DNA of 64,000 bases. Origin: Pontibacter actiniarum. GTDB lineage: Bacteria > Bacteroidota > Bacteroidia > Cytophagales > Hymenobacteraceae. Below are positions 5,432 through 12,658 of the stretch, one piece after another (within the stretch, counting starts at the first letter, position 1; each line of letters starts with the position of its first letter). Position numbers and translations under genes: made by a program. The notes beneath the pieces were generated by a model that was not told the DNA's origin, did no database searches, and saw only the letters and a program-made list of their open reading frames with translations. Location: positions 2,046,001-2,110,000 of the forward strand of contig NZ_CP021235.1 in the NCBI RefSeq assembly GCF_003585765.1, given 5' to 3'.

Positions 5432-6622
5432 CTACAGGGCAAAGAGCTTCGGCAACTGCTGCACCAGGGTATAGCCGCCCAGGTAAGCCATCACCAGCAC
5501 AACCAGCACACCAAACACCGTTAGCAAAAGCGGATGCCGGTACGTTCCCACTATTTTTGGTTTGTAGGCAGCATACACCATTACCCCCAGCGTAAGCGGC
5601 AGAACCAGGCCGTTTAGCGCCCCGGCAAGTATAAGCAGGCGAACAGGCTGCCCGATCGTCACGAAAATAACGGTGGAAACAAGTATAAAAACGATAATAA
5701 CCCCGTTTTCATAGGCCTGGATTTTACGGCTGAAAGACTTCAGAAAGGAAACGGAAGTATAGGCCGAGCCGATAACAGAGGTAACGGCTGCTGAAAGCAT
5801 CACGACCCCGAAAAGCTTGTACCCAATCACCCCGGCAGAAAGCTGAAACACGGAGGCAGGCGGGTTGGCCGGGTCCAGCACCAGCCCTTTGCTTACCACA
5901 CCCAACGCCGCCAGGAACAGGAAGATGCGAATAATGGACGCCACCGTGATACCTGACACGGCACTCGCATTCACCTCCGGAAGCGACTCCTTGCCTTTGA
6001 TGCCGGCATCCAGCAGACGGTGCCCTCCAGCGAAAGTGATGTAGCCGCCCACGGTGCCGCCCACCAGCGTGATAATGGCCAACACATCCACCTCGTCAGG
6101 GAAAAAGGATTTCGTAAGCGCCACTCCTACGGGTGGTGCAGACGTAAATGCCACGAACACGATCAGCAGGATCATCAGAAAACCCAGCACCTGTGCAAAG
6201 CGGTCCATCACCTTTCCGGCCTCGTGCACCAGAAACACGGCCACCGCCATAGCAGCAGCCATAACAGCCCCTACCTCCGGCGACACACCGAGCAGCACGT
6301 TAAACCCAAGCCCCGCGCCACCCACATTGCCTATATTAAAAGCCAGCCCGCCCAGCACAATCAGAAAAGAAATAAACGCACCCAGGCCGGGCAGCACCAT
6401 GTTGGCAATATCCTGCGCCCTTCGTTCGGACACGGCAATTACCCGCCATACATTTAACTGCACCCCGATATCCAGCACGATAGAGATCAGAATGACAAAG
6501 CCAAAGCTGGCCGCCAGTTGCTGTGTGAAAACGGTTGTCTGCGTCAGGAAGCCCGGGCCAACGGCCGAAGTTGCCATCAGGAAGGCGGCGCCCAGTAAAA
6601 CGCTCCAGTTTCTCTTCTTCAT
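5432..6622 (-). CDS. NRAMP-fold transporter of the 5-oxoprolinase operon (YcsG-like)
   Basis: Membrane carrier with 11-12 hydrophobic segments and an NRAMP/APC fold. The ATG at 6622 gives 396 residues and is preceded by AAGG, seven bases after the pxpA stop; an upstream GTG-type extension is not needed. Canonical NRAMP metal transporters bind Mn/Fe with DPGN in helix 1 and MPH in helix 6. Here helix 1 reads AVGPGFLTQT and the helix-6 region reads GGTVGGYITFAGGH, so both motifs are absent. Bacillus subtilis ycsG lies in the equivalent ycsF-kipI-kipA neighbourhood. Last gene of the pxp operon. Uptake of 5-oxoproline or a related compound is inference from context. Confidence 0.88.
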   Translation of the reverse strand: MKKRNWSVLLGAAFLMATSAVGPGFLTQTTVFTQQLAASFGFVILISIVLDIGVQLNVWRVIAVSERRAQDIANMVLPGLGAFISFLIVLGGLAFNIGNVGGAGLGFNVLLGVSPEVGAVMAAAMAVAVFLVHEAGKVMDRFAQVLGFLMILLIVFVAFTSAPPVGVALTKSFFPDEVDVLAIITLVGGTVGGYITFAGGHRLLDAGIKGKESLPEVNASAVSGITVASIIRIFLFLAALGVVSKGLVLDPANPPASVFQLSAGVIGYKLFGVVMLSAAVTSVIGSAYTSVSFLKSFSRKIQAYENGVIIVFILVSTVIFVTIGQPVRLLILAGALNGLVLPLTLGVMVYAAYKPKIVGTYRHPLLLTVFGVLVVLVMAYLGGYTLVQQLPKLFAL

Positions 6623-6629
6623 CCTTCGT

Positions 6630-7391
6630 TTACCGTGCAGTGAGGTTGATTCCTTCAGCCAGCAGGCGCTCGCGGATAAGCTGCGCAAAGGCGCGTGCGT
6701 GGGGGCCGTCGCCGTGCACACAAACAGTGTCCGCCTTTACCGGTACCTCGTCCCCCTGCTGCGACAGCACTTTGCCCTCCTTCACCATTCGCACCACCTG
6801 CCGCACGGCCTCCTCCTGGTCTACAATTAAGGCGTTTGGGTGGCGCCGCGGAGTCAGTGAACCGTCCTGCTGATAAGTACGGTCCGCAAAAACCTCGCTG
6901 GCAGTTTGCAACCCCAGCTTCTCCCCTGCCTTAACCAGCTCGCTGCCGGCAAGGCCATAAAGTATAAGCTCCGGATCTAGTTTGTACACGGCCTCCGCGA
7001 TAGCCTGTGCCAGCTCCACGTTCGTAGCAGCCATGTTGTACAGGGCACCGTGAGGCTTCAGGTGGTGCAGCCTTGTTCCCTCCGCTTTGGCAAATGCCGC
7101 CAGCGCCCCTGCCTGGTACAACACCATGTCATACACCTCCTCTGCCGAAACAGCCATTTCCCTTCTTCCAAAGCCGCTCAGGTCCGGCAGGCCGGGGTGT
7201 GCCCCCATAGCCACGCCTTTCTCCAGCGCCAGCCGCACCGTCTTTTTCATCGTGGATGGGTCCCCGGCATGGTAGCCACAGGCAATGTTGGCGGAGGTAA
7301 CATAATTGAGGAGCTCGCTGTCGTTGCCCATGCGCCAGGCTCCGTAGCTCTCGCCCATGTCGCAGTTCAGGTCCACGGTGTATTGGTTCAT
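6630..7391 (-). CDS. pxpA: 5-oxoprolinase subunit PxpA
   Basis: LamB/YcsF family subunit of the three-part ATP-dependent 5-oxoprolinase, which opens pyroglutamate to glutamate. The 253-residue protein starts with the family signature [11 protein letters not shown] (residues 8-18) and carries [10 protein letters not shown] and [10 protein letters not shown], with the conserved His and Asp residues of the fold; length is normal for the family. The start overlaps the end of pxpC by four bases (ATGA), implying translational coupling. PxpA, PxpB and PxpC act as one cytosolic complex that removes a by-product of glutamine, glutamate and peptide breakdown. Confidence 0.95.
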
Positions 7392-8401
7392 TGTTGATGT
7401 AGTTTGTACAGAATGGCCTGCCGGAGCGCCAGCAGGTGCTTCTCCTGCTGGTACAGTAGTCTGTGCGCCTCCTCCAGGCTTACTTCCTGAAACCGAATGA
7501 TTTTGCCCGCCTGCACCTGCGCCAGCGCAGGAAGGTCTGCGGTGATAACCTGGGCAATGCGGGGATAGCCGCCAGTTGTCTGGCTGTCGGCCATAAGCAC
7601 GATAGGGTCGCCCTGCGCCGGCACCTGCACGGTGCCATAGCTCACGGCGGTGGACAGAAGCTCGCGTTCCTCTTCCAGGGCCAGTATAGTACCCTGTAGC
7701 CGACAGCCCATGCGGTCTGACTGCGGCGTTACTTTATACTTTTCATTCCAGATATAGCCCTGGCTGTTTTCTGTAAACCAGTTGTACTCCAGCCCCCGCA
7801 TCGCGCGCAGGGTCGGGTTTTCCTCATACCGTGGGAGCAGCTCCGGCTCCGGCCACCAGGCAGCCTCTGTAAAGGCGTTCTCTTTCCTGTCCTGCAGGAG
7901 CAGGTCGCCTAACAGCAGCCTGTTTGTGTCGCTCACGTCACCGAACTGTAACACATCCCCGCGCTGAAGGCTTCGGCCCTGCAGCCCGCCAATTCCGGCG
8001 CGCAGGTAGGTAGACCGGCTTCCCATCACCTCCGGCACCTGCACCCCTCCGGCAACTGCCAGGTAGGCGTAGTTGCCCTGCACCGGCTTGCCAAAGCGCA
8101 GCACATTGCCGGCCTTCACCAACACCGCCCGCCACATTCGAACGGGCTCCTCGTTTATACTTGCCGAAAGATCTGCTCCAGCCAGGGCGATAAGGGTATC
8201 CTGCTCAAAGCGAAGCTCAGGCCCCTGCATGGACAGCTCCAACACGGCAGCGTGATCCGGATTTCCCACCAAAAGGTTTGCAATGCGCAAGGCAACTTTA
8301 TCCATGGCACCGCCCATCAGCACGCCCTGGCGCTGGAAACCCTTTCGCCCCAGATCCTGCACCGTGGTAAGCAGGCCGGACTTTAGTACCGTCAGCTTCA
8401 T
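7388..8401 (-). CDS. pxpC: 5-oxoprolinase subunit PxpC (KipA-like)
   Basis: Biotin-dependent carboxyltransferase-like family protein (allophanate hydrolase subunit 2 fold), one of two subunits that phosphorylate 5-oxoproline in the PxpABC complex. The 337 residues begin with [18 protein letters not shown], typical of the family, and include [11 protein letters not shown] and [20 protein letters not shown] followed by [11 protein letters not shown]. It overlaps pxpB upstream and pxpA downstream by four bases each. Older annotations call this family KipA, an antagonist of the KipI kinase inhibitor of B. subtilis; the operon favours the 5-oxoprolinase role. Confidence 0.95.
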
Positions 8402-9126
8402 TCCTGCCCCTCCTTCCTTTCCTCGTACTCTTTTTCAGAGATCGGGACAAACCGCACCTTGTCACCGGCCTGTAACAGGCTGGGCACTTGCCGGGCGGCG
8501 TTAAAAAGGGCTACCGGTGTTCGCCCGATCAGTTGCCACCCTCCGGGCGTGCTGATCGGGTAGACGCCTGTCTGCGCACCCGCTATCCCCACACTGCCTG
8601 CGGGTATACGTGCGCTGGGTGTCGCTTTTCTCGGTGTAGCCAGGCGGTTATCCATGCCCCCCAAATACGGGAAGCCTGGTGCAAAGCCAACCATGTGCAC
8701 CAGGTACTCCCCTGCACTGTGCATGTCGATGATCTCTTCTTCACGCAGGCCCGTATGCAGCGCCACCTCCTGCAGGTCCGGGCCATAGGCACCGCCGTAT
8801 ACCACCGGCAGCTCCACCACCCGTGCGGGGGTCGATCTTGTTTCCTGCACCTGCTCCACCAGCACTTCCAGCTTCTGCGTCAGCTCCTCGTAGGCATCCA
8901 GCTTTCCCTGCTGGCTAATCACCCAGGGATCGTAGTAAACGGTAAGGGTCGTGAAGGCGGGGACGTACTCCACCAGACCGGGAAAAGGCTGCTCGTCCAG
9001 CACCTGCGCTATTGCCCGGATGCGGTTTAATATCTTTTTACTTATGATGCTCCCAAACTGCAGTTCCACCGCGGATTCACCTCGGGGGCATATGAGCAGG
9101 GGCGGGTTTTGAATGATTTCAGGCAT
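8398..9126 (-). CDS. pxpB: 5-oxoprolinase subunit PxpB (KipI-like)
   Basis: Allophanate hydrolase subunit 1 / KipI fold, partner of PxpC in the ATP-using half of 5-oxoprolinase. The 242-residue protein shows the family blocks GESAVELQFG near 15, MVGFAPGFPYLGGMD near 145 and GSVGIAGAQTGVYP near 178, followed by STPGGWQLIGRTP. Length is usual for the family. It starts eight bases after the yjjX-like gene and overlaps pxpC by four bases, so all five genes from 9701 to 5432 probably form one transcript. Confidence 0.94.
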   Translation of the reverse strand: MPEIIQNPPLLICPRGESAVELQFGSIISKKILNRIRAIAQVLDEQPFPGLVEYVPAFTTLTVYYDPWVISQQGKLDAYEELTQKLEVLVEQVQETRSTPARVVELPVVYGGAYGPDLQEVALHTGLREEEIIDMHSAGEYLVHMVGFAPGFPYLGGMDNRLATPRKATPSARIPAGSVGIAGAQTGVYPISTPGGWQLIGRTPVALFNAARQVPSLLQAGDKVRFVPISEKEYEERKEGQE

Positions 9127-9134
9127 AAGTACCG

Positions 9135-9701
9135 TTATACTTCGTGCTGCGGCTGCGGGTTCAGGTAGAGGGCTTTGTTCTTGAAAGGCACCAGTGCCAG
9201 CACAACGGCCTGTTCGTAGAGTTCGCGCCTGTCCAACACGTTTTGCGTGAGGATACCCACGGCCCCGCCTTTCTGCTTGGAGTTGGCGTGGCCAAACACA
9301 CGGTCATCAGCCTCCCCTAATTCTACCCCCTGCTCCACCAGTTCCTGCACGGCCTTTGGCAGAAAGAACGTGCCGGACCTTGCGCGACCCAGTTGCTCCC
9401 GGTCCCGCACCACAACCCAGGCAAAGGCTGTCAGTTCTCCCGCCATGGTTTCCACTCCTCCTTCTATGCCCACCCAGAAGTCTGCCTCGGCATGGGCTTC
9501 CTGTGCGTTTGCCACACGGTTCAGCGCCCCCTGCAGCGTCTCCTGCTCTGTTAAGGGTTGGTCGGCTACGCCGGAGGGCACCGAGACTGGCTCCGCCACA
9601 AACTCATACCCCGGGAACATGCGCCCCAGGCCTCCCATTGCGGCATTTACCTTCACCGGGTTCTTAGAGGCGATTACTACTTTACGCTTATTTTCCGTCA
9701 T
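9135..9701 (-). CDS. yjjX: Inosine/xanthosine triphosphatase (YjjX/DUF84 family)
   Basis: Cytosolic house-cleaning NTPase that hydrolyses non-canonical purine triphosphates such as ITP and XTP. The 188-residue protein carries the family blocks VVIASKNPVKVNA (8-20), GVADQPLTEQET (45-56), FWVGIEGGVE (about 75-84) and FGHANSKQKGGAVGILT near 140. It is the first gene of the pxp operon and is not a standard partner of 5-oxoprolinase, so co-transcription may be incidental. The family call is strong; substrate preference is taken from family members. Confidence 0.9.
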   Translation of the reverse strand: MTENKRKVVIASKNPVKVNAAMGGLGRMFPGYEFVAEPVSVPSGVADQPLTEQETLQGALNRVANAQEAHAEADFWVGIEGGVETMAGELTAFAWVVVRDREQLGRARSGTFFLPKAVQELVEQGVELGEADDRVFGHANSKQKGGAVGILTQNVLDRRELYEQAVVLALVPFKNKALYLNPQPQHEV

Positions 9702-10054
9702 TCTTCTGGGACTTCAACCTATGATTTAACTGTTTATCCGGGGAAACGGGCTACACCTTACCTGCTGTATTGGCTACTCAACACACGCATGCGCCCCGAG
9801 GGCAGCAACAGGCGTTGCTTCTCTTACCCGCACCAAACTCCGCACAAGGGTCAGAAAGCCACGTACAGCTCGGGAAGCCATGTAGCTATACGCAGCAAAA
9901 AAGCAGTAAAACCACACAGACCAAGCAAAACAAGCTTTTCCCCCGATACCCTAATCCTTAAAGAAAAGAAATATTTAGAAAACGCGCCAGCCACACGGCA
10001 CTTATCACCGGCTTTGGGGGAAGGATTGCGGGCTTTTAAGTATATTTGACTAAG
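9702..10054. other. Divergent promoter region, yjjX/pxp operon and M1 aminopeptidase
   Basis: About 350 bases separating two divergently read units. A plus-strand open frame crosses most of it but shows no domain and overlaps the start of the yjjX-like gene antisense, so I do not call it. The only regulatory signal I can point to is the TATATTTG box at 10041. No palindrome or hairpin of note was seen. Confidence 0.5.
10041..10048 (+). promoter_or_regulatory. Possible -7 box (TATATTTG) of the M1 aminopeptidase
   Basis: TATATTTG fits the TAnnTTTG -7 consensus of Bacteroidota primary sigma promoters. It ends six bases before the ATG at 10055, so if used the message would have almost no leader. 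The nearest upstream TTTG (10013) is about 24 bases away rather than the usual 19 or so. It overlaps one copy of the AAGTATA heptamer. Confidence 0.35.
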
Positions 10055-12658
10055 ATGAAAAAGAGAAACAGAACCTTACTACTAGCCGGTGTGGGGCTTT
10101 TGGGCGTAGCGAGCCTTGCCTCCTGCAGTGGCCCGCGGGCTACCACTACGGCTGTGCCCACAGCGGCCGTACCCCTCGAAACCGGTGTATCAGCGGAACT
10201 GGCCAATTACCGCAAACAGGTCCTCAGCCATATTGCCTATAACATACACCTGCAGCTACCAGCGCAGAAGCAAACACCCATACTTGGCTCCGAAACCATC
10301 ACCTTCCGGCTAGCCGACAACAGCCAGCCGCTACAGCTCGACTTTAAAGAGGCACCAGACCACCTGAAGCAAGTATGGATCAACGGCAAACTGGCAGAGG
10401 TTCGTGTCGAGAAAGAGCACATCCTGCTTCCGACGCAGCTCCTCAAAGAGGGACTTAACGAAGTTAAAGTCGAGTTCGTCGCCGGTGACCTGTCGCTGAA
10501 CCGCAACGCAGACTACCTCTACACACTGCTGGTGCCGGACCGCGCCCGCACCGTGCTCCCTGTCTTTGACCAGCCAAACCTGAAGGCTACTTTCACCCTA
10601 AACCTTACGCTGCCGAAAGACTGGAGTGCACTGGCCAACGGCCAACTGGTAGACTCCACGCAAAGCGGCGGCAGCAAGAGCTATTCTTTTGCCACCTCAG
10701 ATACCATTCCCACTTACCTTTTCTCCTTTGCGGCAGGCAAGTTCCGCCACGCTCAGCGCGACATGAAGGGCACCACCATGCACTTTTACCACCGCGAAAC
10801 AGACGCCACGAAAATACAGGAAAGCATGGGCCCGATCTTCCAGATCCACAGCGACGCCCTGGCCTTTCTGGAGGATTACACGCAGATACCGTACCCGTTC
10901 CAGAAGTTTGACTTTGTGGCGATACCGGATTTCCAGTACGGTGGCATGGAGCATGTGGGCGCCATCCAGTACAAAGCGTCCAGCCTGTTCCTGGACGATG
11001 GCGCGACGAAAGACCAGCAGATATCCCGCTCTAACCTGATTGCCCACGAAACGGCCCATATGTGGTTTGGCGACCTGGTAACCATGCAGTGGTTTAATGA
11101 TGTGTGGATGAAAGAGGTCTTTGCCAATTTTATGGCTGATAAGATAACCCAGGTGGCCTTAGAAGACACCAACTACGACATGAAGTTCCTGGTCGACCAC
11201 TTCCCCGCCGCCTACAGCATTGATCGCACAGCAGGGGCTAACCCGATCCGGCAGCCGCTGGACAACCTGCAGGACGCCGGGTCGCTCTACGGCAACATCA
11301 TCTACCACAAAGCGCCCATTATGATGCGGCAGCTGGAGCGCCTGATGGGTGCAGAGAAGTTCCAGGAGGGGCTGCAGGAATATCTCCGCACATACGCCTA
11401 CCAAAACGCCACCTGGCCGGACCTGATTAAGATCCTGGATGCCCGCACCGAAGCCGACCTGGAGCAGTGGAACCAGGTGTGGGTAAACGAGCCGGGCCGC
11501 CCCATTTTCAGCTATGACCTGAAAACGGCGGGCGGCAAAGTTCAGCAGCTCACTGTAACGCAGCGGGGCGAAGACGGGTCTGAGCGGGTGTGGCCACAGT
11601 CCTTCGAGATAGCGCTGGTGTACCCTGACCGTATGGAAGAGCTGACTGTGAACATGGCCGAAAGCAAGACGGTGGTAAACGCGGCTGCCGGGAAGGAGGC
11701 TCCGCAGTTTATACTTTTCAATTCCACGGGCCAGGGCTACGGCGTATTTCCGGTGGAAGAGCAGCTGCTGCAGCGGCTCCCCCGGTTACAGGACCCGGTG
11801 CAGCGCGCCTCCAGCTACATTAACCTGTACGAAAACATGCTGAACGGGCGTAGCATCACCCCGGAGCAACTGCTTTCCTTCTACAAAGAGAACCTGGCAC
11901 AAGAGCGTGAGGAGCTGAACGTAAAGCTGCTAACGGGCCAGATGGGCAATATCTACTGGCTGTTGCTTACACCGGCGCAGCGCCAGCAGTATGCGGCCCA
12001 ACTGGAGCAGAAAGTGTGGCAGGCACTGCAGCAGCAGCCGGCCGGCAACGTGAAAAAGCTGCTTTTCAAGACCTACCAAAGTATAGCGCTCACCCAGGAG
12101 GCACAAGACAGGCTGTACCAGGTATGGCAAGAGCAGAAGGCGCCAGCCGGCGTGAAGCTGAACGAGGACGATTATACATCCCTGGCCCTCGCCCTGGCCG
12201 TGCGGGACTACCCGGCAGAAAACATACTGCCACGGCAGCTCGGCCGTATCCAGAACCCTGATCGCCAACAGCGCCTCGCGTTCATGATGCCGGCGCTGTC
12301 TGCCAACCTGCAGGAGCGGGATGCTTTCTTCGCCTCCCTGAAAGAGGCGGAGAACAGGGAGAAAGAGGCGTGGGTAACCGCAGCGCTGGGCTACCTGCAT
12401 CACCCGCTGCGCGCGAAAACATCACAGCACTACCTGCCACAGAGCCTGGAACTACTGGACGAAATACAGCGCACCGGGGATATCTTCTTTCCGTTCAACT
12501 GGCTTCGTGCCACCTTCGGCTCCTACCAGAGCCCCGCAGCGGCACGGGCCGTACGCGACTTCCTGGCCCGCAACCCGAACTACAACCCCAAGCTGAAAGA
12601 CAAGATTCTGCAGGCGGCCGATGATTTGTTCAGGGCAGAGAGGCTGGTGAGGGAATAG
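10055..12658 (+). CDS. M1 family aminopeptidase, lipoprotein
   Basis: Zinc aminopeptidase that trims N-terminal residues from peptides, here membrane anchored outside the cytoplasm. The ATG at 10055 gives 867 residues; an in-frame TTG nine bases upstream is less likely. A lipoprotein signal ends LASC, with Cys near 24. The exopeptidase motif GGMEH is at 296-300, the zinc motif HETAH at 331-335, and the third ligand Glu lies in WMKEVFANF at about 354. The C-terminal part is a long helical ERAP1-like domain, also normal for M1 enzymes. It runs convergently toward pdhC and shares a terminator. No operon partner. Confidence 0.95.
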   Translation: MKKRNRTLLLAGVGLLGVASLASCSGPRATTTAVPTAAVPLETGVSAELANYRKQVLSHIAYNIHLQLPAQKQTPILGSETITFRLADNSQPLQLDFKEAPDHLKQVWINGKLAEVRVEKEHILLPTQLLKEGLNEVKVEFVAGDLSLNRNADYLYTLLVPDRARTVLPVFDQPNLKATFTLNLTLPKDWSALANGQLVDSTQSGGSKSYSFATSDTIPTYLFSFAAGKFRHAQRDMKGTTMHFYHRETDATKIQESMGPIFQIHSDALAFLEDYTQIPYPFQKFDFVAIPDFQYGGMEHVGAIQYKASSLFLDDGATKDQQISRSNLIAHETAHMWFGDLVTMQWFNDVWMKEVFANFMADKITQVALEDTNYDMKFLVDHFPAAYSIDRTAGANPIRQPLDNLQDAGSLYGNIIYHKAPIMMRQLERLMGAEKFQEGLQEYLRTYAYQNATWPDLIKILDARTEADLEQWNQVWVNEPGRPIFSYDLKTAGGKVQQLTVTQRGEDGSERVWPQSFEIALVYPDRMEELTVNMAESKTVVNAAAGKEAPQFILFNSTGQGYGVFPVEEQLLQRLPRLQDPVQRASSYINLYENMLNGRSITPEQLLSFYKENLAQEREELNVKLLTGQMGNIYWLLLTPAQRQQYAAQLEQKVWQALQQQPAGNVKKLLFKTYQSIALTQEAQDRLYQVWQEQKAPAGVKLNEDDYTSLALALAVRDYPAENILPRQLGRIQNPDRQQRLAFMMPALSANLQERDAFFASLKEAENREKEAWVTAALGYLHHPLRAKTSQHYLPQSLELLDEIQRTGDIFFPFNWLRATFGSYQSPAAARAVRDFLARNPNYNPKLKDKILQAADDLFRAERLVRE

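Follow-up and report, generated by a model that had tools for sequence, protein, structure and literature searches.

The question raised by this locus is what a carrier related to the NRAMP metal transporters moves when it is encoded within an operon for 5-oxoproline breakdown. The window, a stretch of 64,000 nucleotides of Pontibacter actiniarum DNA (NZ_CP021235.1, positions 2,046,001 to 2,110,000), encodes on its minus strand a 396-residue carrier of the PxpT/YcsG clade (5432-6622; PF01566, 64-65 bits), here called T. As T lies in a 5-oxoproline-breakdown operon and has lost the metal-binding residues of NRAMPs, it is most likely a 5-oxoproline importer; that it acts at the inner membrane and feeds 5-oxo-L-proline to PxpABC is held to be highly probable. 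This role is already published for the clade (PxpT/YcsG) and is not a new proposal. A second clade, T2, was found in the same operon position in other Bacteroidota.

Metal-site residues of the carrier

Residues 22-28 of T are GPGFLTQ, and GPGF (6548-6559, minus strand) stands at the helix 1 break where metal-carrying NRAMPs have DPGN. Helix 6 contains GGTVGGYI, in which G192-G193-Y194 (6041-6049, minus strand) replace M-P-H at the helix break. Both motifs fall on DPGN and MPH without gaps in a mixed alignment of T and its relatives, and on the breaks of a predicted model. The original prediction, made from the window sequence, had correctly named GPGFLTQ in place of DPGN and the lack of MPH in the helix 6 region.

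A clade alignment was prepared from full-length T of the window and 136 further sequences, from which six broken or partial pieces had been removed beforehand; two of the 137 rows are repeats (L138 and L242, one genome). G22, P23, F25, Q28, N99, G192, G193 and Y194 were invariant and G24 was changed once (G24A), so GPGF and GGY are not chance features. N99 lies in helix 3, in the column of the conserved NRAMP Glu (6326-6328, minus strand), and N337, in helix 10 (5612-5614, minus strand), was present in 42/42 T rows of the mixed alignment.

Six columns held D, N, M and H and, in helices 3 and 10, Glu and Gln in 16/16 canonical rows. In 42/42 T rows the same columns held G22, F25, G192, Y194, N99 and G334, and Asp, Glu, Met and His were all absent from the six positions. 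On the alignment these columns are equated with D56, N59, M230, H232, E134 and Q378 of DraNramp, an equivalence drawn via the canonical rows of an alignment that held no DraNramp row. The Mn site of DraNramp is formed by D56, N59, M230, the carbonyls of A53/A227 and a water held by Q378; H232 adjoins the site and contacts E134 through water, and the D56A variant transports neither Mn nor Cd (PMC10185341). D140 is the sole acidic residue among T positions conserved at ≥97%, and M16 and H201 may, from the sequence, be soft ligands.

PF01566 was matched by 84/84 clade members scanned (Branch_AA_trans also by 1/84, E 0.0002), which places T outside the sequence families of APC amino acid carriers (AsC/BasC/LAT, ApcT). 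T carries the GPGF and GG.VGGY features of the PxpT/YcsG clade and lacks DPGN in helix 1 and MPH in helix 6, the canonical NRAMP features, as well as the helix 1 DxxG of NRMT (G22-P23-G24-F25 in T). Against the MntH subfamily model it scored 30 bits (cut-off 430). The nearest named relatives are three Pontibacter records (77-88% identity). Sequence records annotate clade proteins as divalent metal transporters.

Predicted structure

An AlphaFold2 model of T was generated from a 39-row alignment (mean predicted local distance difference test (pLDDT) 87.9, predicted template modelling score (pTM) 0.87). Helices were predicted at 6-20, 23-65, 180-191 and 193-205, with helix 1 broken at 21-22 and helix 6 at 192. 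These interruptions, at GPG and GGY, are read as the pair of broken-helix sites that belongs to the LeuT fold.

Foldseek placed first 9a52 (66% identity), an integrative model of YcsG from B. subtilis, followed by E-value by EleNRMT (TM-score 0.85) and DraNramp entries (0.69-0.84); other NRAMPs came lower down, as did amino acid carriers, AsC, BasC and ApcT among them. VIA-align gave YcsG a Z value of 64 to the T model; the best DraNramp and EleNRMT entries reached ∼44, and amino acid and other APC-fold carriers, including ApcT, LAT2 and BasC, ∼29-33. On the predicted model the LeuT fold is common to T and amino acid carriers; such likeness of fold is no proof of function. In a HMMER alignment with EleNRMT, the GPG of T fell on a GPG that lies ahead of the DxxG in NRMT. 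This placement was rejected because the predicted helix break and the gapless alignment put GPG on DPGN.

Linkage to 5-oxoprolinase genes

In the window T begins 7 bp after pxpA (LamB/YcsF; 6630-7391; PF03746 357 bits, NF003814 over cut-off). This is preceded by pxpC (CT_A_B; 7388-8401; PF02626 324 bits, TIGR00724 over cut-off) and pxpB (CT_C_D; 8398-9126; PF02682 250 bits, TIGR00370 over cut-off), all on the minus strand and overlapping by 4 bp at each junction, in agreement with the translational closeness originally described. The PxpC equivalog model also matches window pxpC, with a score below the model cut-off. The start of T is likely ATG 6622, and less so the listed GTG 6721, which falls within pxpA.

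Further T loci were fetched by the T sequence alone. Eighty came from genome_contigs, where they scored highest among at least 585 and so lean to close relatives; the other 8 are plasmid loci that were chosen. pxpB and pxpC were present in 86/88 loci and all of pxpA, pxpB and pxpC in 80/88. In phylum-wide draws T was present in 12/296 Bacteroidota, 9/299 Pseudomonadota and 25/299 Bacillota genomes and lay beside pxp genes in 10/12, 8/9 and 25/25 of these (43/46 in total). One centre genome in each draw was known to carry T; with these three set aside, 40/43 were linked. The Bacillota set includes four T copies that are broken or partial (L267, L268, L269, L270), with pxp genes still adjoining. 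Identity to T among the 296 Bacteroidota genomes was either ≥49% or ≤29%, with nothing between.

Linkage to pxp genes over wide-flank loci was 38/41 for T, 24/37 for T2, 0/16 for canonical NRAMPs, 0/13 for NRMT-like and 0/8 for other relatives (Fisher p 8e-18, ignoring relatedness), the last three classes together giving 0/37. Within the genus, T and pxpA occurred in the same 22/25 genomes and were both missing in 3 (Fisher p 0.0004, again ignoring relatedness).

Several loci depart from the usual arrangement. Six from Rossellomorea and Fictibacillus (L069, L070, L072, L073, L076, L093) have pxpB-pxpC-T with no pxpA within 8 kb, and at L077 pxpA is ∼6 kb off and inverted. In Acidaminococcus fermentans (L242, G346) T copies at 8189 and 11171 flank pxpA within a single gene row and are followed by pxpB and pxpC. 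In Cerasibacillus (L130) the first T copy seemed unlinked and a second copy ∼13 kb away was linked. L119 is a 4 kb contig, too short for neighbours.

Substrate and mechanism

The mechanism given here is a proposal as regards direct transport, binding mode and driving ion; sequence, linkage and predicted fold are results of this analysis. T would import 5-oxo-L-proline (pyroglutamate) across the inner membrane by the NRAMP/LeuT fold, for PxpABC, which opens the lactam with ATP to give glutamate. The G-P-G break of helix 1, free of acidic side chains, would bind the substrate carboxylate via backbone amides, Asn99, Tyr194 and Asn337 would read the lactam, and the driving ion would be H+ or Na+. 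In amino acid carriers of the superfamily the G-x-G of transmembrane helix 1 (TM1) holds the substrate carboxylate, and a helix 1 break of the composition seen in T would suit a carboxylate over a cation. A-x-x-[ST]-S is kept in helix 8 of T and T2 and resembles the LeuT Na2 motif; its final Ser is shared by canonical NRAMPs as well, so it decides nothing on coupling. Main-chain partners in unwound TM1 and TM6 shape the substrate pocket of amino acid carriers in the superfamily (PMC5809530).

The published genetics concern two close relatives. A Corynebacterium glutamicum delta-pxpT strain did not grow on 5-oxoproline and plasmid-borne pxpT restored growth; the same report cites an older result, from 2017, that ycsG deletion blocks 5-oxoproline use in B. 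subtilis, and gives identities of 50% for PxpT-YcsG and 46% for PxpT-PxpG (PMC13274462). Together with the linkage found here, these data lend good support to the original suggestion of a different substrate, plausibly 5-oxoproline, which was right in direction for the window gene and already published for the clade.

Several observations weigh against this assignment. Three of the 46 drawn T loci are not beside pxp genes, and two of the genomes concerned, G034 and G646, are without pxpA. pxpB was not found at the T locus of G184, and the 15 kb fetched from G028 (relatives draw) yielded pxpA alone. The authors of the C. glutamicum work state that metal transport by PxpT cannot be excluded (PMC13274462). 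In B. subtilis, expression of ycsG (there 'MntG', a Mn importer) raises cellular Mn, MntR binds the ycsG operon promoter, a mntH mntA ycsG triple mutant was unobtainable without ectopic ycsG, and a polar effect on pxpBC was, according to the same report, not ruled out in the older ycsG work (PMC10448178). MumT of Acinetobacter baumannii was published as a Mn importer within a urea operon, and a delta-mumT strain is lower in Mn and is complemented in trans (PMC5050338). No transport by isolated protein was found in the accessible text of the PxpT/YcsG or MntG/MumT reports. The conflict between 5-oxoproline and Mn is real; sequence and linkage favour 5-oxoproline.

On one alternative reading T would import Mn2+ through a non-classical site and sit in the operon to serve a Mn-dependent enzyme. 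The cellular Mn data for YcsG/MntG and MumT and the MntR binding at the B. subtilis promoter speak for this (PMC10448178, PMC5050338), although the accessible text of these reports gives whole-cell Mn and no measurement of transport by the protein itself. It is made very unlikely by the lack of Asp, Glu, Met and His at positions 22, 25, 99, 192, 194 and 334, by the growth phenotypes on 5-oxoproline (PMC13274462) and by the separate canonical DPGN/MPH NRAMP (460 bits) already encoded in the window genome. The original claim that classical Mn/Fe coordination is not possible applies to the classical site alone; YcsG/MntG and MumT are reported to raise cellular Mn, and metal could conceivably pass by another site or as a complex with 5-oxoproline. 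If the T clade carries 5-oxoproline, the metal-transporter annotations and the two Mn-physiology studies need another look.

Both published data sets would be right if T carried a divalent metal complexed with 5-oxoproline, which would reconcile the growth and Mn reports; another family includes carriers that move metal-citrate complexes. The classical cavity positions hold no acidic or soft residue, and such a complex is held to be most improbable; a metal-dependence test was not found in the accessible text of PMC13274462.

A further alternative is import of another lactam or amino acid (e.g. D-5-oxoproline, hydantoins or glutamine), with L-5-oxoproline taken only incidentally. Several T-bearing pxp operons do contain a 'putative hydro-lyase' gene, the one scanned (L057) being a PF07286 D-glutamate cyclase. 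This family was absent among the eight window genes scanned, and with the growth phenotypes on L-5-oxoproline (PMC13274462) the alternative is considered unlikely. Import of L-5-oxoproline is preferred.

At the unlinked T loci no 5-oxoprolinase or hydantoinase domains were found among the neighbours scanned (8 open reading frames at L190, 4 at L200 and 5 at L241). G034 encodes elsewhere a 1242-residue hydantoinase A-B fusion (L344, 6580-10308), for which the best NCBIfam model was caprolactamase alpha, below cut-off; that this is a 5-oxoprolinase, an alternative lactam-opening enzyme, is a guess. In G646 neither pxpA nor Hydantoinase_B was found in the genome. Its T copy is the most divergent (L241, 7996-9228), lies ∼0.8 kb from a divergent beta-lactamase-family gene (10009-10914) and also adjoins an EamA transporter gene. 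In G312 the T gene is 119 kb from pxpA and a pxpB/C fusion, and no T lies beside these pxp genes.

A second clade in 5-oxoprolinase operons

T2 proteins are of PF01566 type, ∼24% identical to T, with GPGT at helix 1 and VPY at helix 6. Among the 70 non-T matches in the 296 Bacteroidota genomes, 30 lay within 1.3 kb of pxpA. V-P-Y was present in 29/29 of these that were read and GPGT in 25/25 of those aligned; the remaining match is a contig-end fragment that was left unread. The remaining 40 matches comprised 10 T2 away from pxpA, 16 canonical, NRMT-like or other proteins, and 14 unread.

pxpA was over cut-off in 57 Bacteroidota genomes. T lay beside it in 10, a T2-side match in 30 (29 read as T2), both in none and neither in 17; of these 17, T was present elsewhere in 1 and T2 elsewhere in 7. 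T2 thus holds the same operon position as T in 29/57 pxpA-bearing genomes. The non-overlap of T and T2 has a chance of 0.0002 if genomes are independent, which they are not, T and T2 following families. T genomes of the Bacteroidota draw gave no second match, in a search with T as the query that might overlook a weakly matching T2. Among T2 loci read from other phyla, pxp genes lay within 6 kb in 7/7 from Bacillota and were present in 0/3 from Pseudomonadota, and T2 is not always pxp-linked, as the count over wide-flank loci also indicates. An example locus, L327 (G099:C4:158000-172000), has T2 at 5536-6768 followed by pxpA, pxpB and pxpC.

A tree of 74 rows was built with the motif columns removed, by a quick method without bootstrap and with long-branch warnings. 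T and T2 each formed a single clade, with Shimodaira-Hasegawa-like approximate likelihood ratio test (SH-aLRT) values of 100 and 97; the branching order of T2, canonical and NRMT-like proteins was not resolved. Placement of T as sister of canonical NRAMPs was unsupported, T forming its own long branch. The T2 model (21 rows, pLDDT 84.6) has predicted breaks of helix 1 at 20-21 and helix 6 at 206, at GPG and VPY. G22, N99, Y194 and N337 (T numbering) occurred together in 42/42 T, 37/37 T2 and 0/37 other rows. The classes were themselves defined by G22 and Y194, which leaves just N99 and N337 as independent support for the likeness of T and T2; N99 alone also occurs in 4/8 'other' rows and N337 in 8/13 NRMT-like rows.

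T2 agrees with the 'orphan' outgroup of Slc11/NRAMP, with which it is equated here: the substitutions tested in work on that group (D42G, N45T, Ala to Thr, VY in helix 6 and YN in helix 3; PMC10606218) correspond to T2 residues. One study describes its outgroup as the sequences closest to Slc11 without the features for Mn and H+ transport (PMC9606685), another sees in an NRAMP outgroup a bridge to carriers of non-metal substrates (PMC4072509), and a preprint describes Nramp-related proteins as paraphyletic and lacking DPGN/MPH (PMC12873925). No substrate is named for the 'orphan' group in the accessible text of the outgroup literature. No tie to 5-oxoprolinase was found in the literature searched, most subscription papers being outside reach, and as far as these searches extend the presence of the T2 clade in pxp operons goes beyond published knowledge. 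T2 may be a 5-oxoproline carrier like T, and metal NRAMPs may have arisen from such an organic-acid carrier as Gly22, Asn99, Tyr194 and Asn337 became Asp, Glu, His and Leu; this is put forward tentatively, as a possibility somewhat short of even. The T2 result offers a candidate substrate for the outgroup of NRAMP metal transporters and bears on the origin of metal transport in the fold.

Other genes of the window genome

The first gene of the row encodes a DUF84 inosine/xanthosine triphosphatase (9135-9701, minus strand; PF01931, NF003459 and TIGR00258 over cut-off) and is separated from pxpB by 8 bp. A DUF84 gene lay upstream of pxpB in 5/88 T loci and is therefore not a general part of the system. 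On the plus strand a divergently transcribed gene for an M1-family aminopeptidase N-like protein (10046-12658) begins ∼0.35 kb from the 5' end of the operon; peptide breakdown by its product as a source of pyroglutamate is speculation. The genome encodes a third PF01566 protein (G000:C1:3228311-3229765; L202, 6311-7765), very divergent and with GSGS and AGI at the two motifs, its gene directly upstream of one for a pyruvate kinase-barrel protein.

Comparison with known systems

PxpT of C. glutamicum, YcsG (MntG) of B. subtilis and PxpG of Clostridioides difficile belong to the same clade as T by identity and have the same operon partners. T and the YcsG model 9a52 share 65-66% identity, and the clade copy of B. 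tequilensis (L095) has the same motifs; for PxpT and PxpG the likeness is taken from published identities and not from direct comparison of sequences. The window differs in its order, pxpB-pxpC-pxpA-T with the DUF84 NTPase in front.

MumT of A. baumannii is represented by a clade homologue at L057, 46% identical to T and with GPGF and GGY. This locus (NZ_CP064203.1, 5697-13157) reads LysR - T - pxpA - D-glutamate cyclase family - pxpB/pxpC fusion - biotin carboxylase and was matched to the published mumR-T-L-U-H-C as a homologous locus in another strain, not A1S_1266 itself. Because of the domains of its neighbours, the 'urea' operon looks like a biotin-type relative of the 5-oxoprolinase operon; the urea growth data stand against a simple renaming (PMC5050338).

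Canonical NRAMP/MntH (Slc11) shares the fold of T, in which the D, N, M, H, helix 3 Glu and helix 10 Gln are all replaced. The Mg2+ carrier EleNRMT, of the NRMT type, is close in fold at the TM-score given above, and NRMT keeps the helix 1 Asp (DxxG; PMC8806188) where T has Gly. T2 resembles T in being of PF01566 type and often pxp-linked, with GPG at helix 1, Tyr at helix 6 and Asn at helices 3 and 10; it differs in Thr at position 25, V-P-Y at 192-194, an identity of ∼24% and its standing as a separate clade.

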